From contig NZ_JAAGPD010000016.1 in assembly GCF_017104565.1 (NCBI RefSeq), positions 1-64,000 on the forward strand: a DNA stretch of 64,000 nucleotides, given 5' to 3'. Position numbers and translations under genes: made by a program. Within the stretch, counting starts at the first letter, position 1. Each line of letters opens with the position of its first letter. The notes beneath the pieces are model-generated. The model saw only the letters and a list, made by a program, of their open reading frames with translations. It did not search any database and was not told where the DNA came from. Shown piece after piece: positions 30,350 through 53,753 of this stretch. The DNA comes from Paraburkholderia sp. Tr-20389 (GTDB taxonomy: Bacteria > Pseudomonadota > Gammaproteobacteria > Burkholderiales > Burkholderiaceae).

Positions 30350-30371
30350 GCATTTTGTGACAACAAAACGC
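30350..30371. promoter_or_regulatory. GntR-type palindrome A, upstream of the MFS gene
   Basis: The left arm is GCATTTTGTGA and the right arm CAACAAAACGC. The outer positions of both arms match the perfect copy at 53627. It lies between the MFS start and the terminator of the GntR gene. Confidence 0.6.
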
Positions 30372-30383
30372 AGTGCAACTTTT

Positions 30384-30405
30384 AAAAAAAGCGGCCGGAG
30401 GCCGC
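30384..30405 (-). terminator. Intrinsic terminator of the GntR gene
   Basis: The minus strand reads GCGGCC-TCC-GGCCGC followed by seven T, 18 bp after the regulator's stop. This is a textbook hairpin plus U-tract. Confidence 0.88.
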
Positions 30406-30422
30406 GGTGACCGTAAATCGGG

Positions 30423-31424
30423 TTACGAGGATGGTGTGAACACCTCCGTAGCGTGAACCTTGGCGCGTCTCGCACCTTCGATGTGATCTCGAAGAAGCGC
30501 CGCGGCACGAAGAAGATCGTGTTGTGAAATGGCGTCCAGGATCGCAAGGTGCTCGAGCGCTTGCCCTTGGCGTGGCTTGCGAGCGCGGGCCTGTCGATAT
30601 TCAACAAGGCGGCGCAGACGGTCCATCCGTCGCACTGACTGCGCGATGAACCGATTTCCCGACCACTTCGCAATGGTCTCGTGAAAATCGCTGTTGGCCT
30701 CGAAGAGTTCAACCGAATTCATGGTCAGGTAGCCACTACCAGCTATGAACTGCTGTCGACGGCGCAGTTCCTCGAGTTCCACACGGTTCACGCTGAAAGT
30801 AGGCGACATGATGCCCGTCGGTTCGATGGCTGCACGGAAAAGGTAGCTCTCTTCGTACGCTTCAACGGAATCGATCATGGACATGAATTGCCAGCCATGT
30901 CCCACCTGCCGTTCGAGCCAGCCTTCCTCTTGCATCCGCGACAGCACACGACGAAGTTCACTCCGCGAAACGTCGTATTGCCGCATCAGATCAGCTTCGG
31001 TGACGACATCCGATAGCCGGCGCGCGAGTCTGTCGTCCGCAATTTTCAGATAAAGCGGATTGTCAGGTTCGTTGAAAAACTGCTCGGCGATGTCCGTTAC
31101 GTCGCGAGCCGGTTTTGCCATGAAGAAGCCGCGATTGGTGTCGTAATAGACCACTCCAAGCGAGGCGAGATGATGCAATGCCACATTGACCGGCGTGCGG
31201 GACGTCCCGATTTTGTCGGCCAGGACGGATTCGGCAAGCCGGTCACCGATGGCGAGATCTTCGCGGCGAGCCAGAGCAAGGATTTCACGCGCCACCCGGG
31301 TTTGGAGCGGCGACAGGGCAGTAGGGGTATCAGCAGACGATTCCATGGTAGAGGGCGGCAAATGGCCGTTCACGACCGCCGGATGCGGCGGTGCAACTGA
31401 AATGCCGGATGTCAATTTTGCCAT
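30423..31424 (-). CDS. GntR/FCD-type regulator with two winged helices (copy 1)
   Basis: This encodes 333 residues with GGAGG 9 nt before the ATG. After a 35-residue disordered start, a first GntR winged helix covers about residues 40-105 (AESVLADKIGTSRTPVNVAL). A second winged helix covers about 120-180 (VVTEADLMRQYDVSRSELRR, EEGWLERQVGHGWQF). An FCD-like helical sensor follows (SYLFRAAIEPTGIM; FHETIAKWSGNRF). Normal FCD regulators have one winged helix. Two further proteins of this layout lie at 43803 and 57523. The palindrome at 31498 between this gene and the binding-protein gene is the likely operator. Confidence 0.88.
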   Translation of the reverse strand: MAKLTSGISVAPPHPAVVNGHLPPSTMESSADTPTALSPLQTRVAREILALARREDLAIGDRLAESVLADKIGTSRTPVNVALHHLASLGVVYYDTNRGFFMAKPARDVTDIAEQFFNEPDNPLYLKIADDRLARRLSDVVTEADLMRQYDVSRSELRRVLSRMQEEGWLERQVGHGWQFMSMIDSVEAYEESYLFRAAIEPTGIMSPTFSVNRVELEELRRRQQFIAGSGYLTMNSVELFEANSDFHETIAKWSGNRFIAQSVRRMDRLRRLVEYRQARARKPRQGQALEHLAILDAISQHDLLRAAALLRDHIEGARRAKVHATEVFTPSS

Positions 31425-31497
31425 TGCCTCGTTCCTCCGGTAACTGCCAGCTTGCTGCCGATCAGGGAAATTACCGAGTGTGATGCTGTTTGCGGAT

Positions 31498-31519
31498 GCG
31501 TTTTATGATCATAGAATGC
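31498..31519. promoter_or_regulatory. GntR-type palindrome B, divergent promoter region
   Basis: The left arm is GCGTTTTATGA and the right arm TCATAGAATGC; only two positions differ from the perfect copy at 53627. It lies 74 bp upstream of the regulator and 208 bp upstream of the binding-protein gene, so it could control both. Confidence 0.7.
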
Positions 31520-31726
31520 ATGACACAGAAACGCAACCTGTGGATGCTGGTCCTGGCGAAAACCCCGAGATCCGGCGCTCGCCGAAAAATACGCATCGGA
31601 AATGGGGGCGGAAGTTGGATGAAGCCGGTTCTGGGGCATCGCTGGCCGGGAACCTAGGCCTGAGCCCGTGATCGAGAAGCTGTCGTTGTTGCAGAGATGA
31701 GAAATTACACAAAAAGGAGATACCAG

Positions 31727-32731
31727 ATGAAGCTAAAGCTTCGCAGTACTGCCGTTATCGCAGCAGCTATTTTCACCCTCCACAACGCAGATGCATCGGC
31801 TGCGGACAAAATTACCATCATTGTCGGCGGCATCAACAAGCTCATCTATTTGCCACCCAAGCTCGCCGAGAACCTGGGCTATTTCAAGGATGAGGGGCTC
31901 GACGTCGAACTGCAGTCGCAGCAGGCGGGGGTTGACGCCGAGAACGAGTTGCTCGCGGGTGCGGCCCAGGCAGTTGTCGGCTTCTACGATCATTCGATCG
32001 ATCTGCAGTCGAAGGGAAAGAGCGTTCAAAGTATTGTCGTCTTCGGCCTGGTCCCCGGAAGCAAGGAGCTGGTTCGATCGGACGTCGCGGATCGCATCCG
32101 CAATATGGGTGATCTCAAGGGGCAAACGCTCGGCGTGACGGCATTGGGCTCCTCTTCGAGCTATCTCGGCCAGTACATGGCGGGCAAATATGGTTTGAAA
32201 AGTTCCGACTTCTCGATATTGCCCGTCGGTGCCGGAAACAGTTTGATGGCTTCCATCAAGCAGAAACGCGTGGAAGTAGCCTGGACGACTGAGCCGACCA
32301 CTTCGCTGCTTGTGGCAAGCGGCGACGCAAAGGTGCTGGTTGACCTCAGCACTGTCGACGGAACCAAGGCCGCGCTTGGTGGGCTCTATCCGGCATCGAG
32401 TCTGTACGTCGAGAGCGGATGGGCCAGGACACACAAGACTGAAGCGACAAAACTCGCGAGAGCGTTTGTCAGGGCGCTGCAGTTCATCCAGACTCATCCC
32501 GCTGAGGAGATCGCAGCGAAGATGCCTACCGACTATTACGGCGGGAATAAGGCTCTCTATGTGCAGGCTCTGAAAGCCTCGCTTCCGATGTATTCCCCGG
32601 ATGGAAAAATGCCCGATGGAGGGCCGGAGACTGTGCTTAAGGTGATGAGCGCCTTCAATCCCAACATCAAGGGGAAGCACATTAACCTGTCGGAAACTTA
32701 TACGAACTCGTTTGTGACAGAAGCAAAATAG
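31727..32731 (+). CDS. ABC-type substrate-binding protein (NMT1/SsuA-like), no ABC partner nearby
   Basis: This encodes 334 residues from ATG at 31727 preceded by AAGGAGA. The signal peptide is LKLRSTAVIAAAIFTLHNAD, cleaved after ASA. The mature part has the type-2 periplasmic binding fold of the NMT1/THI5-like family: LIYLPPKLAENLGYFKDEGL, LGVTALGSSSSYL and VEVAWTTEPTTSLL. These proteins bind taurine, sulfonates, thiamine precursors, nitrate or aromatic acids. No permease or ATPase gene is adjacent, which is unusual. It may hand its ligand to a distant ABC system or act as a sensor partner. Site B suggests GntR control. Confidence 0.87.
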   Translation: MKLKLRSTAVIAAAIFTLHNADASAADKITIIVGGINKLIYLPPKLAENLGYFKDEGLDVELQSQQAGVDAENELLAGAAQAVVGFYDHSIDLQSKGKSVQSIVVFGLVPGSKELVRSDVADRIRNMGDLKGQTLGVTALGSSSSYLGQYMAGKYGLKSSDFSILPVGAGNSLMASIKQKRVEVAWTTEPTTSLLVASGDAKVLVDLSTVDGTKAALGGLYPASSLYVESGWARTHKTEATKLARAFVRALQFIQTHPAEEIAAKMPTDYYGGNKALYVQALKASLPMYSPDGKMPDGGPETVLKVMSAFNPNIKGKHINLSETYTNSFVTEAK

Positions 32732-33060
32732 GTGGCTTGTGCGACGCGGTGTGTTGTCTGGCAATCCGCGTCGCAACTATCATCTAGATCTTGCCGTCCA
32801 TTCCTTCGCCTCTTTCCGTTGGCTGGGCGGGAGCCGATCCTGATACCTGGCTGGAGAAGGCGGCATGCGCGGCGTCGATATAGCTCCGGGCCGCCTTCGG
32901 TTTTGCCTGTGTCAGGGCCCGAACCCCGTTCCGAGCAGTGGAGCCTACCCGAAAAGGTTGCAGCCGGTCGTGATGCCGTCACTTCGCATCAAGACAGGCT
33001 CGCGACAGTCGCCAGTGACCACCACGTCAACTGCTATAGCCAACGTACCCTTTGGTCTTG
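32732..33060. other. Convergent intergenic region, 329 bp
   Basis: This lies between the binding-protein gene and the chemoreceptor gene, which converge. No strong terminator, repeat or gene was identified. Confidence 0.4.
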
Positions 33061-34605
33061 TCACGCTATACGGAACACGCTCACAACCGATCGGAGTTGG
33101 TCGGCCTGTTCATCGAGCGCCGCCGCTGCGGCAGCCGCTTCTTCGACGAGCGCGGCGTTCTGTTGTGTTACTTCATCCATCTGGCCGACAGCGATGCCCA
33201 CCTGCTCAATCCCGCGGGTTTGCTCGAAAGAGGCGGAAGCAATATCAGACATTATTGCGGTCACGCGCTCGATTGACGATTGTATGCGCCCCATCGTTTG
33301 ACCGGCCTGATCAACGAGTTGAGCTCCGACCTTCACCCGCGAACCAGATGTCTCGATAAGGGTTTTAATCTCCTTTGCGGCTGCTGCTGAGCGTTGGGCG
33401 AGGGAGCGTACTTCGCCGGCGACGACGGCAAAGCCGCGCCCATGATCGCCGGCCCGAGCGGCTTCCACTGCGGCGTTCAACGCAAGGATATTGGTCTGGA
33501 AAGCTACGCCTTCGATCATGGTGATGATTTCAGCCATACGGTCCGAGCTTTCGCTGATCTCCGTCATTGTTCTCACGACGTCGAGGACGATTGCGCTACC
33601 ATCCCCGGCCACACTTCGCGCCTCCTTCGCAAATCCGCTCGCGCGCTCAGCATTTTCGGAGTTCTGCTTAACTGTGGCAGTGAGCTGTTCCATGCTCGCG
33701 GCGGTTTCCTCTAGTGACGCCGCCTGATGTTCGGTGCGCGAGGAAAGGTCCATATTGCCTGCCGTTATCTGGCGCGCTGCATCGGCGATCGCAGTCGTCG
33801 ATGCCTTGATCGTGCCAATCGTGTGGGACAAGTTGCCCTGCATCTTTGCCATCGACGAAATGAGACTTACCTCATCATTTCGGCTGGTCACCAACGGGGA
33901 AGCGAGGTTGCCTTGGGCGATTTGATACGCAGCTTCTCTTGCGTAAGCCGGATCGCCGCCGATTTCTCTGCTCAGGCTGCGGATTATCCACACTGCGAAA
34001 ATAGAAGCGACGGAGCCGGCAAGCAGCACCTCCAACCCTTGCAGTATCAGTGCCTTGAGAAATGCGGCATCAATATCGTCGACATACGCACCGGTGCCGA
34101 TGATCCAGTCCCAATCTCCCACGGTTCGAACCGCCGATATCTTCGCTGAGTCGACCTTCTCGCCAGGCTTTGGAGTGTTGGTATTGACATAGCCATGCCC
34201 CGTTCGCACGGCGTCGAAAATCGCAGCAAAAATGCGGTTGCCCTTGCTGTCCGTCAGGTTGGCCACATTCGTTCCGACCATCTGGGGGCGAACCGGATTG
34301 AGCAACATGACAGGCTCGCGGGTCGCCGCAAAGATATACCCGTCTGTCCCATAGCGGAGACGCCCCAGTTCAGCGAGCGCCGCACGCTGGGCGTCGGCTA
34401 GCGACAATTCACCAGCTCCGACCTTGCGTTTGTACGCGTCGATGACATGGTTTGCAGCGTCGAGCACGGTATCGAGGGTCGCTTTGCGATCTTCGATCAT
34501 CGTACGACGATGCTGAACGACACTAAGGACGCTGATGAAAGCCAACGTCAGCCAGACGACACCGACGAGTGACCATAGTTTGCGGTGAAACGACAAGTGG
34601 ATCAT
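33061..34605 (-). CDS. Methyl-accepting chemotaxis protein with sCache-type sensor
   Basis: This encodes 514 residues from ATG at 34605 after GGGAG. The layout is a membrane helix (about 10-30), a periplasmic single-Cache domain ([40 protein letters not shown]), a second membrane helix (about 185-205), HAMP, and the signalling hairpin with the invariant tip [20 protein letters not shown] and [20 protein letters not shown]. Single-Cache chemoreceptors commonly sense small carboxylates (family knowledge). It diverges from a porin, with operator C between. This suggests taxis toward the substrate of this cluster. No C-terminal tethering pentapeptide is present. Confidence 0.92.
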
Positions 34606-35317
34606 GTCCCAGCAACTCCCATATTTGCCGTTGCAACTTAACGGCAAGCAATTTCCAAACTTGATATGCGCCCGTCGCAATTCTCATGTCTCGGATCGTG
34701 AGGACGTCACCTAGTCGAGGGCGCGGCGGCGCAGCCCTTAACCGACCTGCAAGGACGTACGGCGAGGGAGGGCAAGCGCGTCGAGACGCCCCCGTTCTTT
34801 GGCTGCGGGCGATCAAGCGGGACCGCTTCCGCTGCGGCGGCGTCCTGCGCATCGCCCAGTCTTATAGCATTTCATGATCTTAAAACGCAATGCAAACGAA
34901 CTATAAAATTGGCTGACGTTGTATCGCCGCAAATCGGCACGCGGCCCCGTAACTGACGCATGCATTGAGATCACAACCTGCGAATGGTCTAGAACGGCTG
35001 TAAAGGCTTGATTAACGGGCGAATTGCTAACGCTCGACAATCTGCGCGCTGGCGCCAATTTCTGCTCGCGAGCCGGCGTCTTCTCCCTCGACGATTGTTA
35101 GGCTAGGGTATCCACCAACATGAAAGTGCGTTGTGTATACATAAAATGCAACCGTAAATTTTGGGGTGTGAATAAAAAGTCAGTTTGCTGTCTAGATCCG
35201 TCCGTTACGAGACGGCGTGGTGACTGGTGTCGCCGACGTCATAGCCGGAATGAATTTAGGCATGCGAAAGACGTGCTATCGATTTTGCAATCGCTGAAAA
35301 GCGGAGGAGAGGGAAGC
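34606..35317. other. Divergent regulatory region, 712 bp
   Basis: This long gap between the chemoreceptor and porin genes holds operator C (34867-34888). The part at 34860-34920 and 35100-35180 is AT-rich compared with its surroundings and probably contains promoters. No gene is supported. Confidence 0.5.
34867..34888. promoter_or_regulatory. GntR-type palindrome C, between chemoreceptor and porin
   Basis: The left arm is GCATTTCATGA and the right arm TCTTAAAACGC. It lies 262 bp upstream of the chemoreceptor start and 430 bp upstream of the porin start. The distance suggests long leaders or control of a promoter close to the site. Confidence 0.65.
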
Positions 35318-36511
35318 GTGAAGAAGACTGGGATTTCGGCTCTCGTGTTGTCGATGATGGGAATGTTCGCAGCTGCTGCTCATGCACAAGGCAGCGCGAC
35401 CCTGTACGGGATCATCGACGAAGGTTTCAACTACAACAGCAACATGAAAGGAAGCCGGTCGTACGCGTTACAGAGCGGCGTGATGCAAGGTAGCCGTTGG
35501 GGCTTGCGCGGGTTGGAAGACCTCGGGGGCGGGCTGAAGACGATCTTCGTACTGGAAAGTGGCTTCGACGTGAATAACGGCAAAGCCGGACAGGGCGGAC
35601 TGCTCTTTGGGCGCCAGGCATTCGTCGGTGTGACGAGTGACCGCATCGGTTCGTTCACTCTCGGCCGTCAGTACGACGTCGACGCGGATTTCGTCGGGCC
35701 GTTCGAGGCAGGTACGCAATGGAGTGGTAATGTCGGCGCGCACCCCGGCGACCTCGACAACTTCAACAACACCGTCCGAACGAACAACTCGATCAAGTTC
35801 AAAAGCCTTTCGTACGCGGGCTTTTCGTTTGGCGCGATGTACAGCCTCGGCGGCGTCGCGGGTGACGTAACCCGCAATCAGGCGTGGTCTGTTGGTGCGG
35901 GCTACACCAATGGCCCGTTGGCCCTGGGTGTCGGTTATATGAACGTCCGCAACCCGAACGTGAGCTTCTTCGGGAATGCTACGACTGGTACCCCATCGGC
36001 TTCAACATCCAATGTCACATATCCGATTTACAGCGGCTTCATGTCCGCACGCACCTATCAGGTCATCGGCGCGGGCGGAGCGTACACGCTTGGAGCTGCC
36101 ACGTTGGGCTTCACCTATTCGAACGTGGCTTTCAAGGATCTCGGCGATCTGAGCTCGGGCCCGAACCCGTCGCGATACGCGGGCAGTGTTCACTTCAACA
36201 ACGCGGAAGCGAACTTCAAATATCAGGTAACGCCTGCGTTGATCGTCGGCGTCGCGTACGACTACACGAACAGCAGCAAGATCTCCAGCGGTAGTGGTAC
36301 CAACAATGGCGCAACGTACCATCAAGGCATGCTTGGAGTGGACTATTTCCTGTCGAAGCGCACTGACGTTTATGTGATGGGCATCTATCAGAAGGCATCG
36401 GGGACGGACTCCCGGAATCAATCGGCGATCGCATCGATCAACAACCAGTCTTCGCCGTCCAGCAACGACCGGCAGGCGCTCGTGCGCGTGGGCATTCGCC
36501 ACAAGTTCTGA
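35318..36511 (+). CDS. Outer-membrane porin
   Basis: This encodes 397 residues from GTG at 35318, chosen because GGAGGAG lies just upstream and the signal peptide (KKTGISALVLSMMGMFAAAA, cleaved after HA) begins there. A longer frame upstream is not protein-like. Family blocks are WGLRGLEDLGGGLKTIFVLE, FGRQAFVGVTSDRIGSFTLG and the end RVGIRHKF. It is the outer-membrane entry candidate for the ligand of the GntR-controlled cluster. It shares sequence features with the porin at 54740 (for example the YNSN.KG..SY start of the barrel). Confidence 0.92.
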   Translation: MKKTGISALVLSMMGMFAAAAHAQGSATLYGIIDEGFNYNSNMKGSRSYALQSGVMQGSRWGLRGLEDLGGGLKTIFVLESGFDVNNGKAGQGGLLFGRQAFVGVTSDRIGSFTLGRQYDVDADFVGPFEAGTQWSGNVGAHPGDLDNFNNTVRTNNSIKFKSLSYAGFSFGAMYSLGGVAGDVTRNQAWSVGAGYTNGPLALGVGYMNVRNPNVSFFGNATTGTPSASTSNVTYPIYSGFMSARTYQVIGAGGAYTLGAATLGFTYSNVAFKDLGDLSSGPNPSRYAGSVHFNNAEANFKYQVTPALIVGVAYDYTNSSKISSGSGTNNGATYHQGMLGVDYFLSKRTDVYVMGIYQKASGTDSRNQSAIASINNQSSPSSNDRQALVRVGIRHKF

Positions 36512-36558
36512 TTGCGCCTGGCGCAAAAGGACGTCGAACGCGGCATTTAACCGGTAGT

Positions 36559-36597
36559 GTCCGGCCCGCAGGTCATACGGGCCGGACGTTTTGTTTC
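36559..36597 (+). terminator. Intrinsic terminator of the porin gene
   Basis: The stem GTCCGGCCCG / CGGGCCGGAC has a 9-nt loop and is followed by GTTTTGTTT. It lies about 48 bp after the stop codon. Confidence 0.8.
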
Positions 36598-36640
36598 GGA
36601 GTCGCAGAAAGTTAGGCCCGGCAGCGCGATTGGAAACCCG

Positions 36641-37705
36641 TTAAGCCCTTGTGCTGAAGATAATGCAGACGGGGCTTCCCGTCTCGATCACCTGACCTGT
36701 TGCCGCGAGTCCAGTATCCTTGAGCGCGAACTCGACGATCGTGTCGGATCGTTCGTTGGCCACATAAAGATGCCGGCTCTCGGGGTCCAGTCCGATGAAG
36801 CGTGGGAAGTCTCCCTGACAGGAGACCCAGTCGGTCTCGCCGGGCATACCATTTTCGTCAAGTGCTATCGCAGCAACTGTGTTGCTACCCCTGTTCGATA
36901 CGAGGAGCTGCTGTGCGTCCGCGGTGATGACGATGCCCGCTGCGGTCGATTCGCCAGCGAACCCAGGTGGGAGCACAGGCGCCGTTTTCAGCGACGTTAG
37001 TTTCCCGGACGCAGCGTCGAAGTTCCACACTGTCACCGTTGAATTCAGTTCGTTTGCGATATACACGAACGGTAGCTTCGGGTGAAACGCAGCATGACGA
37101 GGTCCTGATCCAGCCTCCCAGCGCTCTGTGTGAACTTCGCATGTCCCGTCCGGGTGCCAGCGAACCGCCGATACCGAATCAATTCCTTTATCGGGGACAA
37201 TGTGCCAATCCGAGTCGCAGAAGGGTGTCTGGTAACGCGAAATATGATGCGGATGCGAGCCTTTCTGCTCCTTCGTGTGAGGGCCCGGTAAGCCAGTGAA
37301 CGTTACGATCTCGTTCGATGATTCCAAGGCACCGTCTCCCGCTATCGGAAGACGGGCGATGCATCCCGTTGCGTAGTTCGCGATAGCAAGCCATTGTTCA
37401 TCTGCCGAGAATGCGAGGTGAACCGGATTGCGGCCATTACAAGCCACAGAGTTTACGAAAGTCAGTCGCCCCGACTCAGCGTCAACGCGAAAGCTGCTTG
37501 CCATTTCCCCGTCGCCGTGCACGGCATAGAGCATGGTCTGCGCTCGATTCATGACCAGAAAAGAGGGGTTGTCGAGTGTCGGAAATACGTCGACAAGCGT
37601 CCATCTCTTGGTATCAGCGCTTACCTGATAGAGCGCAATGCCTTTTCCTCGTGCGTTGCGTTCACGCGTCGTGCGACAACCTACGTAAGCAAACTTCCTG
37701 GCCAT
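36641..37705 (-). CDS. Beta-propeller lactonase (6-phosphogluconolactonase/Pgl-like family)
   Basis: This encodes 354 residues and no signal peptide. Seven propeller-blade repeats are visible, each with a pattern like VYIANELNSTVTVWNFDAAS or HLYVANERSDTIVEFALKD. The conserved lactonase blocks HPHHISRYQTPFCDSDWHIV and GSGPRHAAFHPKLPFVYIAN are present. The family opens sugar-acid or cyclic-acid lactones, as in YbhE/Pgl and carboxy-muconolactone-type enzymes. Operator D is 82 bp upstream. It is divergent from the cupin-dehydrogenase run and likely acts in the same pathway. The substrate is not known. Confidence 0.85.
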   Translation of the reverse strand: MARKFAYVGCRTTRERNARGKGIALYQVSADTKRWTLVDVFPTLDNPSFLVMNRAQTMLYAVHGDGEMASSFRVDAESGRLTFVNSVACNGRNPVHLAFSADEQWLAIANYATGCIARLPIAGDGALESSNEIVTFTGLPGPHTKEQKGSHPHHISRYQTPFCDSDWHIVPDKGIDSVSAVRWHPDGTCEVHTERWEAGSGPRHAAFHPKLPFVYIANELNSTVTVWNFDAASGKLTSLKTAPVLPPGFAGESTAAGIVITADAQQLLVSNRGSNTVAAIALDENGMPGETDWVSCQGDFPRFIGLDPESRHLYVANERSDTIVEFALKDTGLAATGQVIETGSPVCIIFSTRA

Positions 37706-37786
37706 TCTGTATCCGCCTTCTCTGATGTCCGGTTGTTGGCGATCTATGACGCGACTCTGCCATCGTCCGGATGTCTAAACATAAGT

Positions 37787-37808
37787 GCATTATATGGTCA
37801 TAAAAAGC
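37787..37808. promoter_or_regulatory. GntR-type palindrome D, upstream of the lactonase
   Basis: The left arm is GCATTATATGG and the right arm TCATAAAAAGC, three positions off the best right arm or consensus left arm. It lies 82 bp upstream of the lactonase start. Confidence 0.6.
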
Positions 37809-38019
37809 TGACAGTAAAGCTGATCGGTGTGATTCCAGTAACTGCCCAGGGGCGGCTGTTGATTGCAGGGCTAGCGACCACCGCATCTGCGCTAGGGAGC
37901 CATATATTTTCAGAAGGCTTGCAGACCGTGGCCGCGTCAAGCGGCTGGCGCGCTTCAAATTAACTCCGACCCTACTAATATAGCTGACTCCAGGGTAAGC
38001 CATAGGTGCTCTCCTTATT
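37809..38019. other. Divergent promoter region between operators D and E
   Basis: This 211-bp piece sits between the two operators, whose left ends are 233 bp apart. It probably carries the promoters of the lactonase (left) and of the cupin operon (right). No gene is supported. Confidence 0.4.
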
Positions 38020-38041
38020 GCATTCTATAATCACAAAACGC
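38020..38041. promoter_or_regulatory. GntR-type palindrome E, upstream of the cupin operon
   Basis: The left arm is GCATTCTATAA and the right arm TCACAAAACGC. It lies 119 bp upstream of the cupin start and faces the lactonase operator D across the divergent region. Confidence 0.65.
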
Positions 38042-38159
38042 TATACTTTGGCTCATGAAGTGGTCGAAAGGCCCTTGCACCTTGCTTGGATCCAGATGCG
38101 ATGCCCGGGCGAGTCACCCACGATGACCGGACCGGCCATCAAAAACCTTGGAGTCAATC

Positions 38160-38579
38160 ATGACGATGCGTACCCCTTCTGGCGCAGCTTTGCTCAAACC
38201 GGAAAACCTCGTAACTTACGAGCGGGGCGGCGGTGCACGCACGACGCCGCTCGTGAACGGCGAACTCGGCACGAGCAGCTTCATCACCGGCTACACGTCG
38301 TTTGACCCGGGTGTCGAAATCCCCTTCCACAGCCACAACTGTCAGGAAAGTGTCGTGTTGATGGAGGGTGAGGCAATGCTCGACATCGACGGGCTGGAGT
38401 ATCAGTTGAAGGCCCACGACGTGACCTTCATTCCGCCGAACGTCAATCACCGCTTTCGTAACCTGTCCAAGACGAACCCGATGAAGATTCTCTGGATCTA
38501 CGCGAACACAGAAGCTACGCGTACGCTCACCGAGTCGGGCGCAACGGCACCGGTGTCGGCTGAGCACGTGAAACGCTAA
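38160..38579 (+). CDS. Cupin-domain protein
   Basis: This encodes 139 residues from ATG at 38160, preceded by GGAG at 38150; a TTG at 38148 is unlikely. It has the single-cupin barrel with metal-binding motif 1 EIPFHSHNCQESVVLMEGEA (two His and a Glu) and motif 2 HDVTFIPPNVNHRFRNLS (a His). The length is usual for small cupins. It could be an isomerase, dioxygenase or a carbohydrate-acid binding protein. It is probably the first gene of an operon with the dehydrogenase at 38728, the monooxygenase-like protein and the aldehyde dehydrogenase, starting downstream of operator E. Confidence 0.85.
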   Translation: MTMRTPSGAALLKPENLVTYERGGGARTTPLVNGELGTSSFITGYTSFDPGVEIPFHSHNCQESVVLMEGEAMLDIDGLEYQLKAHDVTFIPPNVNHRFRNLSKTNPMKILWIYANTEATRTLTESGATAPVSAEHVKR

Positions 38580-38727
38580 ATCGCGCAAGGCGTCAGCGAC
38601 GTTGGTCGTCTGGTGCATTCCATATCTTCTTTTACCGTGCCGACAATTCACTTCCTTGCCATGTTGCATGGAAGCTTGCTACGCACGATATAGATCCGTT
38701 TAGTTGTCTGTTTGACCGGGAGATCTC

Positions 38728-39783
38728 ATGCCATACCTCGTTCAGGCGGAAGGGTTGAGCCGATTTGGCGAAGCCGTTCTCGAAACTCTGGGCGTCCCTG
38801 CCGCCGATGCACACCTTTTGGCTGATAGCCTGGTCGTTGCTGAACTTTGGGGCCATTCATCGCACGGCATGCTCCGTCTGCCCTGGTACGTTGACCGTCT
38901 GCGCAGCGGAGTGATGACTGCGCAGACGAAGCCGGAACTCGTCGTCGATAACGGCGCGATTGCAGTGATGGATGGGCATCAAGGCGTCGGTCAGGTTCTT
39001 ACGGCAAAGGCTGTAGAACTCGGGATCGCACGTGCACGTGAACATGGCATCAGCGCGATCGGTGTGCGCAACTCGAATCACTTCGGTACCGCCGCCTATT
39101 TCACGCGTAAAGCGGCTGAGCAGGGCTGCGTGGCGATCCTCGCGACGAACGCGAGCCCAGCGATGGCGCCGTGGGGTGGCCGTCAGAAGAGTGTCGGGAC
39201 CAATCCCTGGTCGATCGCGGCTCCGGCGGGAGAGCGAGGCGTCGCGGTACTGGACATCGCCAACACAGCGGTCGCGCGTGGAAAGATCTATCTCGCCGCC
39301 GAGCGCGACCAGTCGATCCCCGAAGGCTGGGCCGCCGATGAGAACGGTGTCCCGACAACCGATGCCAAGAAGGCGATTCATGGCATCGTCCTGCCGATGG
39401 CCGCGCATAAGGGCTACATCATCTCGTTCATGATGGACGTGCTGGCCGGGGTGCTGACGGGCAGTCACTTCGGTACGAAGGTCGCGGGGCCGTACGAAGC
39501 GAACAAGGTGTCCGGTGCCGGTCATATGCTGATCACCATCGATATCAAGTCGATGATGCCCGAGGCGGAATTCGCGCAGCGAATGGAAGAGTTGATCGCC
39601 GAAATCAAGGCTGTGCCGACTGCTCACGGCGTGGAGGAAATCTTCTTTCCCGGTGAGATTGAGGATCGCAACACGGTTCGGTTGCGCGAGTCCGGTATCA
39701 CGCTGGCAGATACGACGTGGCACAGCATGGAAAAGCTGGCGCAAGAGGCTGGCGTTTCACTCCCCATAACCAAGGCAGCCTGA
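38728..39783 (+). CDS. Malate/L-lactate dehydrogenase-family (Ldh2) oxidoreductase
   Basis: This encodes 351 residues. The family hallmarks are GHSSHGMLRLPWYVDRLRSG, GHQGVGQVLTAKA, VRNSNHFGTAAYFTRKAAEQ (catalytic His) and GTNPWSIAAPAG. The fold is the non-Rossmann NAD(P)H-binding type of type-2 malate/lactate/sulfolactate dehydrogenases, which reduce 2-keto acids or oxidise 2-hydroxy acids. The 2-hydroxycarboxylate carrier at 52145 fits this chemistry. It follows the cupin gene by 148 bp and precedes the monooxygenase-like gene by 14 bp. Exact substrate unknown. Confidence 0.88.
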   Translation: MPYLVQAEGLSRFGEAVLETLGVPAADAHLLADSLVVAELWGHSSHGMLRLPWYVDRLRSGVMTAQTKPELVVDNGAIAVMDGHQGVGQVLTAKAVELGIARAREHGISAIGVRNSNHFGTAAYFTRKAAEQGCVAILATNASPAMAPWGGRQKSVGTNPWSIAAPAGERGVAVLDIANTAVARGKIYLAAERDQSIPEGWAADENGVPTTDAKKAIHGIVLPMAAHKGYIISFMMDVLAGVLTGSHFGTKVAGPYEANKVSGAGHMLITIDIKSMMPEAEFAQRMEELIAEIKAVPTAHGVEEIFFPGEIEDRNTVRLRESGITLADTTWHSMEKLAQEAGVSLPITKAA

Positions 39784-39797
39784 AAGATAGGAAAGAC

Positions 39798-40100
39798 ATG
39801 ATTGCTCTGATCGTTTCGCTTCAAGTCCACGAGGACAAGCTGGACAAGTTCCTTGCAGCCATCGAGGAAAACGCTGCCCGTACGTTTAACGACGAGGCCG
39901 GTTGCACGTATTTCGATGTCACGCGGGACACGAAGGATCCACTTCACTTCATCTTCTACGAGCTTTACGAAGATGAAGCCGCAATCGATGCACACCGAGC
40001 GGCTCCGCATTTCGCGAAATGGCGCGAGGCGGCTGACGAATGCGTGGTTAAAGGTAGCCAGGTTAACACGATCTGCAAGCAGCTTTTCCACCACGTATAA
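39798..40100 (+). CDS. Antibiotic-biosynthesis-monooxygenase-like (ABM) protein
   Basis: This encodes 100 residues from ATG at 39798, with TAGGAAAG before it. It has the ABM ferredoxin-like fold: IALIVSLQVHEDKLDKFLAA, ARTFNDEAGCTYFDVTRDTK and FIFYELYEDEAAIDAHRAAP, ending in PHFAKW. Members include YgiN quinol monooxygenase and small cofactor-free oxygenases, and many act on dienes or quinones. It lies between the dehydrogenase and the aldehyde dehydrogenase on one strand and is likely co-transcribed. Its role here is uncertain; it may handle a side product or act as an isomerase. Confidence 0.85.
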   Translation: MIALIVSLQVHEDKLDKFLAAIEENAARTFNDEAGCTYFDVTRDTKDPLHFIFYELYEDEAAIDAHRAAPHFAKWREAADECVVKGSQVNTICKQLFHHV

Positions 40101-40169
40101 CCCCGAGGCGTCAAATCGTCCGTCCGACGGCGGCGCCCGCAGCGAACACCCAAGTAAGGTACAAGTGTC

Positions 40170-41564
40170 ATGACGACCCAGATTGCTACTATTTGCCCGA
40201 TCAACGGCGCGCAACTCGAAACATATCCGTCGATGTCTGACGCCGCTATCGAAAGCGCGGTGAGCAAAGGTTACGCGGCTGCGAAGTCGTGGGGCCAGCG
40301 ACCGTTGGACGAGCGCGTCGCTGCGGTCCGAAGGCTTGCTGAAGAACTGCGGAAGCAGGCGGGCGCATTCGCCGAGCTGATAACTTCCGAAATGGGCAAG
40401 GTTTCGGCGGAAGCTGCGGGCGAAATGGAGAAGTCTGCCGTGACGGCGCTCTACTATGCCGACAACGCGTCGCGTATCCTCGGCGACGAAAAGGTGTCGA
40501 TCGACGGCGTTGACGCATGGGTGAGCTATGAACCTATCGGGTTGGTGCTCGCGGTGATGCCGTGGAACTTCCCCGTGTGGCAGGTCATGCGATTCGCGAT
40601 TCCGTCGATTACTGCGGGCAATGGAATCGTACTCAAGCATTCGCCGAACGTGACCGGTTGTGCGCTTGCACTTCAGCAACTGTTCGTTGACGCAGGTCTG
40701 CCTGAGAACCTCGTCACGACCCTTGTCGTTGCCGAACCGGACGTCCCAGCAGTTAGTGATCGTCTCATCAACGACGATCGAATCGCGGCGGTGACGCTGA
40801 CTGGCTCCAATCGCGCAGGCGCGGCTGTTGGTGCTGCCGCGGGACGAGCATCGAAGAAGTCGGTTCTGGAGTTGGGTGGCTCGGACGCGTTCGTTGTACT
40901 GGATGACGCGGACCTCGACACCGCGGTCGCGGCTGCCGTGAAGGCGCGCTTTCACAATGCTGGTCAGAGCTGTGTGTGCGCGAAGCGATTCATCGTATCC
41001 GAGGCAATCGCCCAAAAGTTCACGGAAAAATTCGTCACAGCGACAAAGGCCCTGGTTGTCGGCGATCCGCGCCAGGCCAATACGCAGGTCGGTCCGCTCG
41101 CCCGTGGTGATTTGCGCGACGCGCTGAATCGTCAGGTGCGCGAGTCGGTCGCCGCTGGCGCGGTGCTGCTGACCGGCGGTAAGGCGGTTGACGGCCCTGG
41201 CTTTTTCTACGAGCCGACGGTGCTGGGCGCAACCGCTCCCGGCATGGTGGCCTTCGACGAGGAAACGTTCGGCCCGCTCGCCGCTATCGCCGTAGCGAAG
41301 AGTGACGACGATGCTATCCGTCTCGCCAATGCTTCGCCGTTTGGCCTTTCGATCAGTGTGTGGTCGAAATCGAAAGATCGGGCGTTTGCTGTGGCCAAAG
41401 GCGTGACGAGTGGCGCCGCATTCATCAATGCGGTAACTGCGTCGGATGCTCGAATTCCTTTTGGCGGTACCAAGAAGTCGGGCTACGGTCGCGAACTGGC
41501 AGCGGCGGGTATTCGGGAGTTCACGAACGCGCGTACGTACTGGGCAGTTGAACAAAAAGCCTAA
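40170..41564 (+). CDS. NAD(P)-dependent aldehyde/semialdehyde dehydrogenase
   Basis: This encodes 464 residues. The aldehyde dehydrogenase superfamily residues are present: N133 in [11 protein letters not shown]234 in LELGGSD and catalytic C268 in [11 protein letters not shown], plus [10 protein letters not shown]. The short form (about 460 residues) and the sequence [20 protein letters not shown] resemble succinate-semialdehyde dehydrogenases of the SAD/GabD branch. It would finish a pathway by turning a semialdehyde into a dicarboxylate. It is the last gene of the run starting at the cupin gene. The natural substrate cannot be read. Confidence 0.88.
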
Positions 41565-42012: not shown

Positions 42013-43350
42013 ATGCACCGAATCATCGTAGTTGGTGGTGGGGCTGGCGGGTTGGAGCTAGCGACACGTCTAGGCGATCGTTATAGCAAAAGCCGCAAAG
42101 GTGTTGCGCAAGCCAGCGTAACGCTGGTTGACCGCTTCCCGACTCACATCTGGAAGCCCCTTTTGCACGAAGTCGCTGCCGGAAGTATGGATCCGTTCAC
42201 GCAAGAGTTGTCATACGCGGCGCAGGCCCGCTGGCACAACTTCGAGTTCCAGCTCGGCGAACTCGTTAGCCTCGATCGTGACGCTCGCCGGATTACCCTG
42301 GGTCGCATCGTCGACGACGACGGAGCCGAACTGCTACCGGGACGAGACCTGAAATACGACACGCTGATCATCGCAATCGGCAGCACCACTCACTTCTTTG
42401 GGGTGAAAGGCGCACCGGAAAACTCGATCGCACTGGACACCGTTGGCGAGGCAGAGCGATTCCGTAAACGTTTGATATCTGCATGTGTGCGTGCTGAGTT
42501 TGGCGCCACCGATAACGCACGGGAAGACCAAAGCGAAAAACCAAAAATTCAGGTTGCAATCGTCGGCGCCGGCGCAACGGGCGTCGAGCTGTCTGCGGAA
42601 CTCAGAAATACGGCTCAGGTGCTGTCCGCTTATGGATTGCACAAACTCGATCCGCGCCATGACGTTGGCATCGTTCTGATCGAAGCGGGCCCGCGGATCC
42701 TGCCAGCGCTTTCTGAAAAAGTCTCGAAGACCACGGGAGAATTGCTAGAAAAACTCGGTGTGAAGCTGATGACTGGAGAGACGGTCGCAGAGGTGACGCC
42801 CGGATCGGTTCATACGGCAAGCGGCAAAACGATTCGCGCGGACCTGACAGTTTGGGCAGCGGGCATTAAAGCGCCAGCAGTTTTGGGCACACTCGACGGC
42901 CTCTCGACAAACCGTCTCGGCCAACTGGAAGTGCGTCGTACTCTGCAAACGATGATCGACGACAATATTTTTGCCCTCGGCGACTGCGCTGGATGCCCAT
43001 GGCCTGACCACGATGGCCGCAATGTGCCGCCCCGTGCACAGGCTGCGCATCAGCAAGCGAGCTTCCTCTTTAAGGCGCTCGATGCTCGATTGAACGGAAG
43101 GGCGTTGCCTGAATTTACCTACCGCGATCTTGGGTCGCTGGTTTCTCTCGGCCGATTTAGCGCTGTGGGCAATCTGATGGGCGGGGTGATTGGGGGCAAT
43201 ATGTTTATCGAAGGCCTGTTTGCCCGCTTCATGTACATGTCACTGTACAGGATGCACGTCGCAGCTATGCACGGCTACCCACGCATGGTGCTCGATACGA
43301 TCGCGCACTGGCTACGACGCACCACATTGCCTCGTGTCAAGCTTCACTGA
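42013..43350 (+). CDS. ndh: Type II NADH dehydrogenase (NDH-2)
   Basis: This encodes 445 residues from ATG at 42013 after GGAGAG; a longer upstream reading is not protein-like. Two Rossmann motifs are clear: VVGGGAGGLELATRLGDRY for FAD and VAIVGAGATGVELSAELRNT for NADH. The quinone/FAD block IFALGDCAGCPWPDHDGRNV and the C-terminal membrane-binding helix segment (FIEGLFARFMYMSLYRMHVA) complete the family plan. It oxidises NADH to feed ubiquinone without proton pumping, helpful when dehydrogenases in this cluster generate much NADH. A role tied to the cluster is inferred from location. Confidence 0.9.
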   Translation: MHRIIVVGGGAGGLELATRLGDRYSKSRKGVAQASVTLVDRFPTHIWKPLLHEVAAGSMDPFTQELSYAAQARWHNFEFQLGELVSLDRDARRITLGRIVDDDGAELLPGRDLKYDTLIIAIGSTTHFFGVKGAPENSIALDTVGEAERFRKRLISACVRAEFGATDNAREDQSEKPKIQVAIVGAGATGVELSAELRNTAQVLSAYGLHKLDPRHDVGIVLIEAGPRILPALSEKVSKTTGELLEKLGVKLMTGETVAEVTPGSVHTASGKTIRADLTVWAAGIKAPAVLGTLDGLSTNRLGQLEVRRTLQTMIDDNIFALGDCAGCPWPDHDGRNVPPRAQAAHQQASFLFKALDARLNGRALPEFTYRDLGSLVSLGRFSAVGNLMGGVIGGNMFIEGLFARFMYMSLYRMHVAAMHGYPRMVLDTIAHWLRRTTLPRVKLH

Positions 43351-43437
43351 CCCGGTCAGGCGTCGCCAATATGCCACCAATGCGCTGGAGTCTGATGCGC
43401 CGGATCGATGCTATTCTCGAAGCATCCACTTGTGAAT

Positions 43438-43459
43438 GAGTTTAAAGATCATAAAACGC
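43438..43459. promoter_or_regulatory. GntR-type palindrome F
   Basis: The left arm GAGTTTAAAGA is degenerate; the right arm TCATAAAACGC is perfect. It lies 344 bp upstream of the second GntR-type gene. Confidence 0.55.
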
Positions 43460-43571
43460 ATTAAATTGGCCGAAGGTGGTGACCGCGCGTTCTCTCCATA
43501 AAGAAGTTTTCATCTATACTGGGGTTAATATCTAAAGTCTTTCGGGAAAGCGGGCGCTATCATCTCTAAAT

Positions 43572-43593
43572 GCATTTATGGATAATAAAACGC
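43572..43593. promoter_or_regulatory. GntR-type palindrome G
   Basis: The left arm is GCATTTATGGA and the right arm TAATAAAACGC. Its left end is 134 bp from that of F and the site ends 209 bp before the GntR start at 43803. Both sites probably serve autoregulation, possibly by looping. Confidence 0.6.
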
Positions 43594-43802
43594 ATTAATG
43601 GTTTTTAGGCGCCTTGTTTTTCGATGTCTACGCATGCAACGGGCAGCTCGCCTCGGGTTGTTCGGGCTATTGGCTCTACATGGCAGCGATTTGCGTGATG
43701 GGAGCCGGCTTGCGCCTTTGTCGAAAGCCGCGCATGCCCAGGGGCGTACGCGACTGGGAAGGAATGCTCACGTTTTCGATGTTGGGCACTACATCATTTG
43801 AC

Positions 43803-44705
43803 ATGGTCCACAAACTAAAGGGTGTGCTGGCGGCGCAAGTCGCAACGAAAATTGCGGAGCTTGCACGCCAGCGATCAATGCATGTTGGCGATCCTCTGCG
43901 CGAAGTTGTACTTGCGAGCGAGCTGGGCTTATCTCGCACACCGGTTAGACGCGGTCTTACCCTTCTTACGCAATATGGAATAGCCGTAAAGTCGGATAGG
44001 ACAGTCCGGCTCGCGATAGAAGGCGAGCAGATTGATCTATCCACCCTGCCGTTCGGTGATGACCCGCTTGAAGACCTGTATCTGCGGATCGCGGCGGATT
44101 GTGCTTCAGGGGTGATCGCGGAGGAATTCTCAGAGGCGGAACTGATTCGCAAACTGAACGTATCGAGAGGAAAACTGCTGAAGGTGTTGGGCCGACTGGC
44201 CAATGACGGCATGGTTAACAGGAAGGCTGGACATGGCTGGCGCATCAGCCCTTTCCTGCGAGACGTCAACGCTCACATCGAGAGCTATCGATTCCGGATG
44301 TCTATTGAGCCGGCAGCGATCATGGAGCCTGATTTTCGAATCGACACATCGGCGTTCAAGGAAATCCGTAGCGTGCAGATGGCCATGCTGGAGCGAGAAG
44401 CGATTCCGGCGGAAGAGGTTTTTGAAAACGGATGTCGGTTCCACGAAATGTTAGTCCGATGCTCCGGCAACCGGTTTTTCATTGAGGCCGTCGAACGTCA
44501 GAATCAACTCCGAAGGTTCATCGAATATCACGCTGCGCCGGAGCACTGTGTGCTCACAAAGCAGTGTAAGGAACACCTCGAGATCTTGGATCTTATCGAG
44601 AGTGGCAGCCGCGAGCACGCTTCTGCGTTTATGCGGCGACATCTCGATGTCGCGAGCAAGGATAAGGACGGACAGCCGGTCGAGGGTATCGGGCCGCAGT
44701 TTTAG
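43803..44705 (+). CDS. GntR/FCD-type regulator with two winged helices (copy 2)
   Basis: This encodes 300 residues. The ATG at 43803 is chosen because the protein then aligns without gaps from its first residue with the copy at 57523 (both reach QVA.KI after 12 residues). An upstream frame adds 63 doubtful residues. The first winged helix is at about 12-70 (LREVVLASELGLSRTPVRRG), the second at about 85-145 (FSEAELIRKLNVSRGKLLKV, NDGMVNRKAGHGWRI). The FCD-like helical domain has FRMSIEPAAIMEPDFRI and FHEMLVRCSGNRFFIEAVER. Operators F and G lie upstream. Confidence 0.87.
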   Translation: MVHKLKGVLAAQVATKIAELARQRSMHVGDPLREVVLASELGLSRTPVRRGLTLLTQYGIAVKSDRTVRLAIEGEQIDLSTLPFGDDPLEDLYLRIAADCASGVIAEEFSEAELIRKLNVSRGKLLKVLGRLANDGMVNRKAGHGWRISPFLRDVNAHIESYRFRMSIEPAAIMEPDFRIDTSAFKEIRSVQMAMLEREAIPAEEVFENGCRFHEMLVRCSGNRFFIEAVERQNQLRRFIEYHAAPEHCVLTKQCKEHLEILDLIESGSREHASAFMRRHLDVASKDKDGQPVEGIGPQF

Positions 44706-46310: not shown

Positions 46311-46312
46311 CC

Positions 46313-47335: not shown

Positions 47336-47436
47336 GCTGCATATCGATACCCGTCTGACTCGTTTCGAGTCAGCTGTTACTTTGTATTTGAAGACTTCTC
47401 CACGTCGGCTCGATTTAGTACTTTCTCGAGCCATTA

Positions 47437-47462: not shown

Positions 47463-47481
47463 GGTTCCTTTGTAGATTGTT

Positions 47482-48387: not shown

Positions 48388-48580
48388 ATGCCCGAAGAGT
48401 ACCTGTTGCAGCGCCGCTACATGGGGTCGCGGCGGGCCCCATGTGCGCACTGCCATGCGAGAGTGTCGTAGGGGTCAGGTTGAAAGCGGTATGCGGGCAG
48501 CATCTGCCTTTGCATCGGCATCTAGGGCTGCGTACTAAAGCAGGGCGCGGGGCGTATCGTGTGTACGCTTAAAAGCCGGA

Positions 48581-50254: not shown

Positions 50255-50781
50255 GTACCGATTACCTGTGATTTTAAGGAGGATGAAGATGGCACATCGA
50301 GTCAGCAGCTACATTTCAACCGATCAATGAAAACCACTGGATTGAATATCGGCTTACAACGGATATGCTGAAGGGAAGCGGGGAAGCATTTTTGATTATC
50401 GTTAAATGAGGTGAGTTGTTACTCGTTCTCTGGATGCTACCCGCACTAGCCAAACCGTCCATTCGAGTTCAACTTCACCTTCATCTTAGCCGGGAGGCTG
50501 TGGACAGTCGATCTCAATTCGAATCGTCGCTTCAAATCGCTTTGAATAGAATATTCCTCAGACGTTATAAGAAAAGAAGCAGAAGTATGAAATAATATTT
50601 ATCATCCGGTGATAGAAGCAAGCGACATTTCAATCGCATGTTCTTCGCGGTTTAATGGCCGCGAAGCTGCGCCGCGACGCACAGGCGTGGTCGAGAGCGT
50701 ATTCTGATCGTCGACTGCGCTAATGACCAAGCGGCTTGTCCTTGGTCCACGCTCAAGTTCAAGCCGGTCAGCCTCTGCGGT
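50255..50781. other. Gene-free stretch, 527 bp
   Basis: No gene is supported. The part around 50520-50640 is distinctly AT-rich and may hold the chemoreceptor promoter. No repeat or GntR-type palindrome was found. Confidence 0.4.
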
Positions 50782-51855: not shown

Positions 51856-52112
51856 GAAGGATTACCTGTTAGATGAGGGTGTTAGGAAGACTTGATCGGC
51901 GACCTGACTGGCCACCGAGGCTAGCGGCTGCAGAATGCGCCGCAAACGGACCACGCTGGCATGGCTTTGACCCAACTCGGGATCTACAACGTGAATGTTG
52001 GGCGCGACTTCGAAGGACTGAATCCAGTTAAAGCTTATCTCGATGCTGTGGCATATCGCAGTGATCAGTCGACGTAATCGAGTGTGAGAAGGTCGCAGGT
52101 TCTTAAATGCCG

Positions 52113-52135
52113 ACGGCCAGCTTATCGCTGGCCGT
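52113..52135 (-). terminator. Hairpin after the 2-hydroxycarboxylate carrier gene
   Basis: The arms ACGGCCAGC / GCTGGCCGT form a 9-bp stem with a 5-nt loop just past the carrier stop. There is no U-tract, so termination efficiency is uncertain. Confidence 0.45.
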
Positions 52136-52144
52136 GATTGGAAT

Positions 52145-53491
52145 TTACGAAAGTCGCGAGAGGATCAGCAACGTTATAGTCACAGTGATTGCCCCTCCTA
52201 TCCGTGTCGCAATTTGCGCAAAAGGCATCAGGCTCATCCGGTTACATGCTGTGAGGATGGCAACGTCGCCAGTTCCGCCTTGGCCGCTGTGGCAAGCATT
52301 GACGATAGCCGTGTCGATTGGGTACATCTTGAGCCACTTACCGACGACATAGCCAGTGCTCATCAGTGCTGCGACGGTGCAGGCAATTGTGACGACGTTC
52401 GCTACGTTGATCGCGGCCATCAGCTTGTCCCATGGGGTCATAGCAGTGCCGATCGCAAACAGCAGAGGATATGTCACCGCGGTCGAAAAGAATTGGTAGA
52501 CGATCTTTGCTCCGCCTTCGAGATTCGGCGATACGAGGCGTGTGACCTTAATGAACACCGCTACGAATAGCATTGCGACGGGAGCGGGAAGGCCAAGCAC
52601 CCGGTGGCCCAGCAACCCGACGAGGTAGAGGCTGATTGCAGTAATTGCAGCTGCTGCGACGGTATTTACGTCTGGCGTGGTCGGTGCAGCTTCAAACCGA
52701 GGTGTCTTCGGGATGTCCTGTGCGGGCTGGAGTGTCCCGCGGCCCGTGAGATGCGGCCGCTTTTCCCCAATCCAGCTTAGCAGCCCGGAGAACAGAATGG
52801 CGCAAAGGCTGCCGATCATTACTGCGGGAAGAACCTCAGCAAAGACGGGACCTTGGGGAATATTCAGGATTTCAGAATAACCAACGGACAAGGGAATCGC
52901 ACCCTCTCCGACGCCTCCTGCCATGATCGGAATGACGATATACAGCAACGTATGCTTTGTTCCCAAACCGAGTAGCGTGCCGACGGTGGTTCCGACGATT
53001 CCGGCCACGATAGACCCAGCGGCGAGGGGGAAGAATATTTTTGCGAAGCCTCGTATCAGGACCTGACGGTCCATGCTGAAGATGCTCCCCACGATGATCG
53101 ACGCAATAAAGAGATACATGAAATTGCTGACTTGGGTGAAATTGGTCACCATGCCGAGCAATTTTTCCGGAAGCAGATGATGGAACGCGAGGAATGACGG
53201 AAGAAAGGTCGCAACGATAGCCGCCGATCCGATTTTGTTGAAGAACGGAAGGCGCTTCCCGAGTTCGGCGCATGTGAAGCCGCAAAGCACCAGAACGGCG
53301 ATCGCCATGGATATCTCGCCTGGCACCTTTCCAGTGATCACGAAGCCGGCGACCAGTGCCAGCAGCAGAAGATAGATCGGAAGAGGGATGATGCCGACCC
53401 TGATCTCGACGATCGCCCACCATCCGAACGGCCAGAACGAAGTACGTTCCGTTTCAGCCTGGCTAGATGCCAGGTCTCGCGTTTGTTGCAT
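52145..53491 (-). CDS. 2-hydroxycarboxylate transporter (CCS/2-HCT family)
   Basis: This encodes 448 residues from ATG at 53491 after GGAGACG; a longer start at 53602 lacks a site. It has the two family signatures: IMAGGVGEGAIPLSVGYSEI in the first half and ACHSGQGGTGDVAILTAC in the second, each a reentrant GGxG loop. About eleven hydrophobic segments are seen. Relatives (CitS, MalP, CimH) import citrate, malate or lactate with sodium or protons. Operators H and I lie upstream, and a dehydrogenase of the tartrate/malate type lies downstream. Together they suggest uptake and oxidation of a 2-hydroxy acid. Confidence 0.9.
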   Translation of the reverse strand: MQQTRDLASSQAETERTSFWPFGWWAIVEIRVGIIPLPIYLLLLALVAGFVITGKVPGEISMAIAVLVLCGFTCAELGKRLPFFNKIGSAAIVATFLPSFLAFHHLLPEKLLGMVTNFTQVSNFMYLFIASIIVGSIFSMDRQVLIRGFAKIFFPLAAGSIVAGIVGTTVGTLLGLGTKHTLLYIVIPIMAGGVGEGAIPLSVGYSEILNIPQGPVFAEVLPAVMIGSLCAILFSGLLSWIGEKRPHLTGRGTLQPAQDIPKTPRFEAAPTTPDVNTVAAAAITAISLYLVGLLGHRVLGLPAPVAMLFVAVFIKVTRLVSPNLEGGAKIVYQFFSTAVTYPLLFAIGTAMTPWDKLMAAINVANVVTIACTVAALMSTGYVVGKWLKMYPIDTAIVNACHSGQGGTGDVAILTACNRMSLMPFAQIATRIGGAITVTITLLILSRLS

Positions 53492-53626
53492 TGGTCGTCT
53501 CCTTAATTCGACTTCGTTCACGAACAACGGGCGCGGAGCGACGGGACCTTCGCGAGACTGTCGGCAGCGGACTCTCTGCAGGCAGACCGTTTCGGCACTC
53601 ATTCACGCGATCCGACGTTTCTCACA

Positions 53627-53648
53627 GCGTTTTATGATCATAAAACGC
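53627..53648. promoter_or_regulatory. GntR-type palindrome H (perfect copy)
   Basis: The left arm GCGTTTTATGA and right arm TCATAAAACGC are exact complements over 22 bp. It lies 136 bp upstream of the 2-hydroxycarboxylate carrier start. This is the best copy of the set and defines the consensus. Confidence 0.8.
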
Positions 53649-53731
53649 AAAGCGCAGACGTTGGGATCGGTGTTTACACGGGTGTTTGCGGCTATCGGGC
53701 TAGATCATGAAGAAGTTCGCTCGCTGTAAAT

Positions 53732-53753
53732 GCATTACGTGTTGAAAAAACGC
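53732..53753. promoter_or_regulatory. GntR-type palindrome I
   Basis: The left arm is GCATTACGTGT and the right arm TGAAAAAACGC; the outer five to seven positions are conserved and the centre is degenerate. It starts 105 bp after the start of H, ten helical turns, so both face the same side of DNA. Confidence 0.5.

Follow-up and report, generated by a model that had tools for sequence, protein, structure and literature searches.

Ten palindromic putative operators in Paraburkholderia sp. Tr-20389 and a GntR regulator with two predicted winged helices as their likely reader

In the window analysed here (64,000 nucleotides of Paraburkholderia sp. Tr-20389, positions 1-64,000 of contig NZ_JAAGPD010000016.1), ten palindromic sites of 22 bp lie upstream of genes for carriers, sensing, a lactonase and an oxidation run. 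Very probably, these palindromes are the operators of G1 (30423-31424, minus strand), an FCD-type GntR regulator predicted to have tandem winged-helix domains, which would act as one switch over these functions. The sites, their non-random character, their conservation at orthologous genes and their tracking with the G1 gene were established computationally.

Nine of the sites had been reported in a first-pass annotation of the same DNA; all nine 22-mers were present at its coordinates and their intergenic placement was confirmed, but a tenth member at 35128 had been missed. The sites were scored with a position weight matrix (PWM), which was built from 18 sites upstream of 16 G1 orthologues of other species; no site of the window was used. 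Ranks 1 to 10 in the window were, in this order, 53627-53648 (score 39.9; upstream of the 2-hydroxycarboxylate (2HCT) carrier gene), 31498-31519 (39.0; between G1 and the gene for an NMT1-type binding protein, a putative autoregulatory site), 38020-38041 (31.5; upstream of a run of cupin, Ldh2, ABM and aldehyde dehydrogenase (ALDH) genes), 34867-34888 (30.4; between the chemoreceptor and porin genes), 37787-37808 (28.1; upstream of the lactonase gene), 43438-43459 and 43572-43593 (23.8 and 21.7; both upstream of a second GntR gene, G2), 30350-30371 (21.6; before the MFS carrier gene), 35128-35149 (14.3; upstream of the likely porin start) and 53732-53753 (11.8; a weak second site upstream of the 2HCT carrier gene). 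The next score was 8.7, at 50697. The best scores in 100 Markov sequences as long as the window averaged 7.7 and reached 17.2 at most; eight sites scored above every Markov-random best, whereas 35128 and 53732 are weak by score alone and their case rests on position. The listed start of the porin gene is 35120, and a signal-peptide-like N-terminus begins only near 35318; because the porin probably starts at the latter position, 35128 was taken as intergenic. The palindrome was perfect at 53627 only, and the other eight of the nine sites matched the 22-base consensus at 20, 19, 19, 18, 18, 17, 17 and 15 positions, the last value (53732) not exceeding that of window positions 50697 and 58691 by simple count. 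With up to three mismatches, the consensus had four matches in the window versus none in 100 shuffles. By matrix ranks, shuffles and Markov controls, the sites taken together are not a chance set. The majority of the sites are asymmetric, with a strong AAAACGC arm and a GCATT-like arm; the conserved core is ATGA/TCAT and the outer arms are TGCRTTT. Note that the next-best position (50697-50718) lies about 440 bp upstream of a second chemoreceptor gene and may be a weak site or chance.

Across the 129 contigs (9.0 Mb) of the whole genome, six cluster sites and nothing else matched the core motif at three mismatches or fewer (reversed control, 0); this uniqueness applies to close core-motif matches, and weaker sites elsewhere are possible. 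The looser pattern GCRTT-N10-AAAACGC gave 12 exact rows, comprising eight at seven cluster sites, one at window position 9168 and three on other contigs.

Three GntR genes are present in the window, namely G1, G2 (about 43764-44705) and G3 (57469-58479). When named genomes were searched with the alignment of the three proteins, 69 loci were obtained, including 17 G1-orthologue loci (L088-L104; 73-88% identity to G1) from Paraburkholderia, Burkholderia, Caballeronia, Cupriavidus, a Ralstonia bin and Pandoraea. By the end-match rule, a site was found upstream of the G1 orthologue in 16 of the 17 loci, and that of the 17th (L098) was weaker. At a PWM score of at least 11, the site was upstream of G1 in 19/19 loci (18 distinct loci, since L079 and L091 are one genome). 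At this threshold, the 17 G1 loci gave 46 hits in 346,593 bases (18 of them training sites), and the other 52 family loci gave 4 hits in 1,016,616 bases. The motif was present in 10 of 145 genus genomes (own included). In eight of the nine others, a G1 orthologue (69-86%) adjoins the site, with its aligned start 191-198 bp away; in the ninth (G087), the sites lie at a contig end, without a GntR match. Outside the training set, a G1 orthologue (72%) was found on a Robbsia andropogonis plasmid, accompanied by genes for lactonase, MFS, cupin, Ldh and ABM-type proteins and for succinate-semialdehyde dehydrogenase. The five best PWM hits of this plasmid scored 29.8, 28.5, 25.2, 24.4 and 15.1 (next, 5.8), and these hits are intergenic; they front the GntR/lactonase genes, the MFS gene on either flank, the cupin run and one more MFS gene. 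The plasmid (p1, L184) was typed as mobilizable, and IS3 transposase genes stand on both sides of the regulon. Since the site tracks G1 across genomes and recurs around the same genes on the held-out Robbsia plasmid, G1 is the likely cognate regulator, as judged from these sequence comparisons.

By Pfam, G1, G2 and G3 each have two GntR stretches and a single FCD domain. For G1, the winged helix PF00392 was detected twice (E 9e-19), which places the protein in the GntR superfamily, and the FCD domain PF07729 was detected above the cut-off (E 3e-15), as in the FadR/VanR subfamily; the single N-terminal winged helix of that subfamily was not found, and two were predicted instead. The AlphaFold model (34 aligned sequences; mean pLDDT, 81; pTM, 0.60) has its winged helices at residues 39-102 and 123-180, followed by the six helices of the FCD domain (187-323), and both winged helices are spanned by the 34 aligned family members. 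Both predicted domains have the canonical GntR contact residues: E65 (32/34), S75 and R76 (34/34 each) in the first, and E143 (34/34), R154 (33/34) and the wing residues G175, G177 and W178 (34/34) in the second. In the FCD domain, H248, H292 and H314 are invariant (34/34), and N244 is Asn in 25/34. The Glu and Arg residues of the GntR winged helix are known DNA contacts. This assignment is covered in part by the excerpted text of PMC7797058. The first-pass annotation had noted the GntR gene but not its tandem winged helices.

Which of the two GntR copies binds the sites had been left open. That G2, or G1 and G2 by sharing or competition, reads them appears improbable. Two sites lie directly upstream of G2, as would be expected of an autoregulated gene, and G1 and G2 are members of one protein family; however, the identity between them is only 35%, and seven motif-positive genomes in which the site adjoins G1 have nothing more than 38% identical to G2. 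Furthermore, genomes G078 and G096 have G3-type proteins (89% and 82%), which are relatives of G2, and neither the motif nor a G1 orthologue was seen in them; the palindrome upstream of G3 orthologues is a different one (TGTATTTGATCGCAATATAGTACA-like; 6/9 regions, 5/7 distinct genes). G1 is thus favoured as the binder, and G2 looks like its target. Far less credible is an unrelated regulator (e.g., of the IclR or LacI type) beside which G1 is merely clustered. An IclR-type gene does occur near the regulon in L092, and the G1 sites, palindromic and A/T-rich like FadR-subfamily operators, do not fit the TKGT/ACMA consensus, in which GT and AC are usually separated by 3 nt, as given in the excerpted text of PMC4494728. 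Against this, among the seven genes tabulated, G1 and the MFS gene alone have sites in every locus, and the palindrome that precedes a G1-like paralogue outside the window, although related, differs from this one. A dispersed repeat or mobile element, which several similar copies within one region might bring to mind, can practically be dismissed, because the copies are short, intergenic and conserved in position at orthologous promoters in other genera, their 15-base flanks vary from copy to copy, and no close copy exists elsewhere in the 9 Mb.

As for how G1 would act on these sites, we infer direct binding, with one G1 dimer per palindrome of 22-24 bp. The four winged helices of the dimer would read the outer TGCRTTT arms and the inner ATGA/TCAT core, a longer read-out than that of single-headed FadR/VanR proteins. 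Repression is the usual habit of the GntR/FCD family. G1 would most likely repress its own gene, G2, and the genes for the MFS carrier, binding protein, chemoreceptor, porin, lactonase, cupin-Ldh2-ABM-ALDH run and 2HCT carrier, and its release would follow binding of a small metal-chelated (hydroxy)carboxylate in the FCD pocket. The spacings of paired sites are 105, 134, 233 and 261 bp. In the two strongest sites, TATGAT, one base off a -10 box, occurs on both strands, and three of seven promoter-like matches overlap sites (37787, on the minus strand; 34867; 35128). Promoter occlusion is only a conjecture because the total of such matches does not exceed that of shuffles.

The genes fronted by the sites were assigned mainly with Pfam. 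On the minus strand are the MFS carrier (29005-30339), a chemoreceptor with an sCache_2 sensor (33061-34680), a seven-bladed lactonase (36641-37705) and the 2HCT carrier (52145-53602); on the plus strand are an NMT1/SsuA-like binding protein (31697-32731; also NCBIfam), a general porin (35318-36511; start inferred from the N-terminus), a cupin (38160-38579), an Ldh_2-type 2-hydroxyacid dehydrogenase (38728-39783; also PDB), an ABM-domain protein (39798-40100), a Sad-like (succinate semialdehyde) aldehyde dehydrogenase (40170-41564; also PDB) and G2 (43764-44705), a second double-winged-helix GntR protein with an uncertain start. Across the loci, a site was found upstream of the MFS orthologue in 19/19, of the lactonase gene in 10/19 and of the cupin gene in 6/9; in L099, L100 and L102, the cupin run stands after the MFS gene. 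In all nine loci in which the lactonase gene lacks its own site, an aconitase-like gene on the lactonase strand lies between it and G1, and a PrpF-like open reading frame is clustered in seven of the nine. Hence, the earlier proposal that one operator links carriers with oxidation genes is supported by the recurrence of sites at orthologues in other genera and on the Robbsia plasmid. Its extension to sensing and the porin draws on this window; elsewhere, a chemoreceptor gene was near the cupin site in one genome, that of P. unamae, where a TarH-type gene starts about 450 bp from the site and faces away. All the fronted genes may serve one compound, as had been proposed.

Several observations weigh against G1 as a single repressor of this whole set. 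The binding protein gene has a site in 2/6 loci and the 2HCT carrier gene in 0/9, both lying in several loci downstream within the aconitase/lactonase gene row, and the porin and G2 sites were seen in this genome only. Pseudomonas relatives (56-59%) keep part of the gene set, and their upstream alignment shows no such site; relatives below about 60% identity are mostly without one. Three other plasmid loci (42-49% relatives) had no PWM hit of at least 11 (best, 9.0, 0.2 and 0.0). Promoter-like matches at 30200-44000 numbered 7 versus 5.2 expected from shuffles, which is no excess, and there were none at 53500-54000; G1 may also activate rather than repress.

With regard to the substrate, relatives combine the G1, MFS and lactonase genes with one of two modules, namely the cupin-Ldh2-ABM-ALDH run or aconitase/AcnD-like and PrpF genes, the latter often accompanied by a 2HCT carrier or binding protein. 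In the PDB, the ALDH is nearest to Sad, and Ldh2 is nearest to sulfolactate and malate/lactate dehydrogenases. That aconitase/PrpF genes take the place of the oxidation run in relatives suggests a hydroxyacid that is tricarboxylate-like or can form a lactone; as the best-fitting class, a tricarboxylate-like acid or its lactone is about evenly balanced between right and wrong. Trans-aconitate, methylisocitrate, 2-hydroxyparaconate and isocitrate-lactone were each considered, and none explains the whole gene set. Among the more distant plasmid relatives, that of P. aeruginosa lies near CitMHS and PrpF genes and that of Cupriavidus taiwanensis near genes for aconitase, PrpF and a tricarboxylate binding protein; the Agrobacterium plasmid relative has no such CitMHS/aconitase/PrpF neighbourhood.

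The protein of known structure closest to G1, by sequence and by fold, is PmiR of Pseudomonas aeruginosa (7xp0/7xp1). The sequence match covers residues 140-321 only (the second winged helix and FCD), the identity is 25%, and the PmiR chain has about 200-218 residues, the best PDB relatives of G1 being generally about 200-280. PmiR serves the prp operon. Its reported ligand, as named in the title of a paper by Cui et al. (2022), is 2-methylisocitrate. G1 relatives adjoin AcnD- and PrpF-like genes, as in prp operons; among the 20 window proteins scanned with Pfam, however, none belonged to the citrate synthase or methylisocitrate lyase/isocitrate-lyase-type families, and the linked prpB and prpC genes of a methylcitrate-cycle regulator (PmiR/PrpR type) were not found. 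Another relevant protein is Atu1419, a VanR-group FCD repressor which, according to the excerpted text of PMC7797058, has zinc and citrate in its pocket with contacts including Asn137, His141 and His214, and has paired operators at spacings of 109 and 190 bp, loops having been seen for the latter. G1 resembles it in the GntR winged helix with FCD, in the N-x3-H pattern (N244/H248) with H292 and H314, and in the pairing of sites. This likeness of the FCD His/Asn residues to the zinc/citrate pocket favours, by analogy, a carboxylate effector for G1. In contrast, Atu1419 has a single winged helix, and its operator, as excerpted, is the 10-bp ATGTATACAT, whereas G1 has two predicted winged helices and a predicted operator of 22-24 bp.

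Double-winged-helix GntR proteins were found in 20 of 398 sampled genomes of the phylum. In the own genome, one contig has four of these paralogues in a stretch of about 57 kb, and C26 has a fifth. The paralogue G4 (G000:C9:86245-87117; L069, L182), outside the window, is 51% identical to G1 and has its own palindrome, TGCGTTTATTTAACAACAAACGCA; a 50% relative in G041 has nearly the same one. The G4-type pattern was absent from the other 143 of 145 genus genomes, its presence in 2/145 being by construction, as it was built from the only two known sequences. Across 102 upstream regions, TGYRTT-N12-AAYRCA was found with one mismatch or fewer in 40 regions and in half or more of the members of 9/20 groups, and other spacings (4 to 20) reached at most 21 regions and 3 groups; note that the pattern and the groups were picked after seeing the data and that some genes were counted twice (e.g., L049/L089, L044/L104, L040/L141). 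An exact site of this pattern occurs 147 bp upstream at the P. aeruginosa plasmid locus (L185). A family-wide operator rule was rejected, a further point on the unfavourable side: 21 held-out phylum-wide loci gave 2 at spacing 12 versus 0-3 at other spacings. Therefore, the putative pattern is claimed only for G1 orthologues and some relatives (G4, Dickeya, L117/L118, most G3 orthologues, L151/L154/L162 and L185).

Some further observations were made on the paralogues. G3 with the following MFS and isocitrate/isopropylmalate-dehydrogenase-like genes looks like a neighbouring paralogous regulon. In Bradyrhizobium (among L119-L152), a TGTATTTTGTGATGACATGAAACA-like element (five mismatches or fewer) stands just before the GntR gene in 21/22 upstream regions, and peptide-type ABC transporter and aminotransferase genes adjoin the GntR gene in L119. 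The 41-43% relatives L117 and L118 have TGTATCA...GATTGACAAAATACA upstream, and an isocitrate/isopropylmalate-dehydrogenase-like gene directly follows the GntR gene in L117. Paralogue matches with one internal stop (G103:C19, G103:C7, G142:C22 and G096:C12:206405) are possibly decayed copies.

Among the matches listed from the open-licence PMC literature, no report of tandem winged-helix GntR proteins was found, nor, in the 20 of 54 matches listed for it, of a Paraburkholderia GntR regulon of this kind, and the papers that matched the letters of the motif bore unrelated titles; the earlier statement that no regulon with this operator had been described agrees with this search. For such a GntR branch, the finding offers a probable regulator and its operator, together with a putative regulon and an effector class that can be tested. 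It seems somewhat more probable than its opposite that G1 belongs to a widespread, undescribed FCD-GntR branch with a duplicated winged helix, a four-headed dimer and operators of 22-24 bp, in which the operator cores of paralogues diverge and several switches coexist per genome. The tandem winged helix, if true, would be a new route for FCD regulators to operator length and specificity, and long orthogonal operators may serve as parts for organic-acid biosensors. For this soil bacterium, a single switch apparently covers chemotaxis, uptake across both the outer and the inner membrane, and oxidation.

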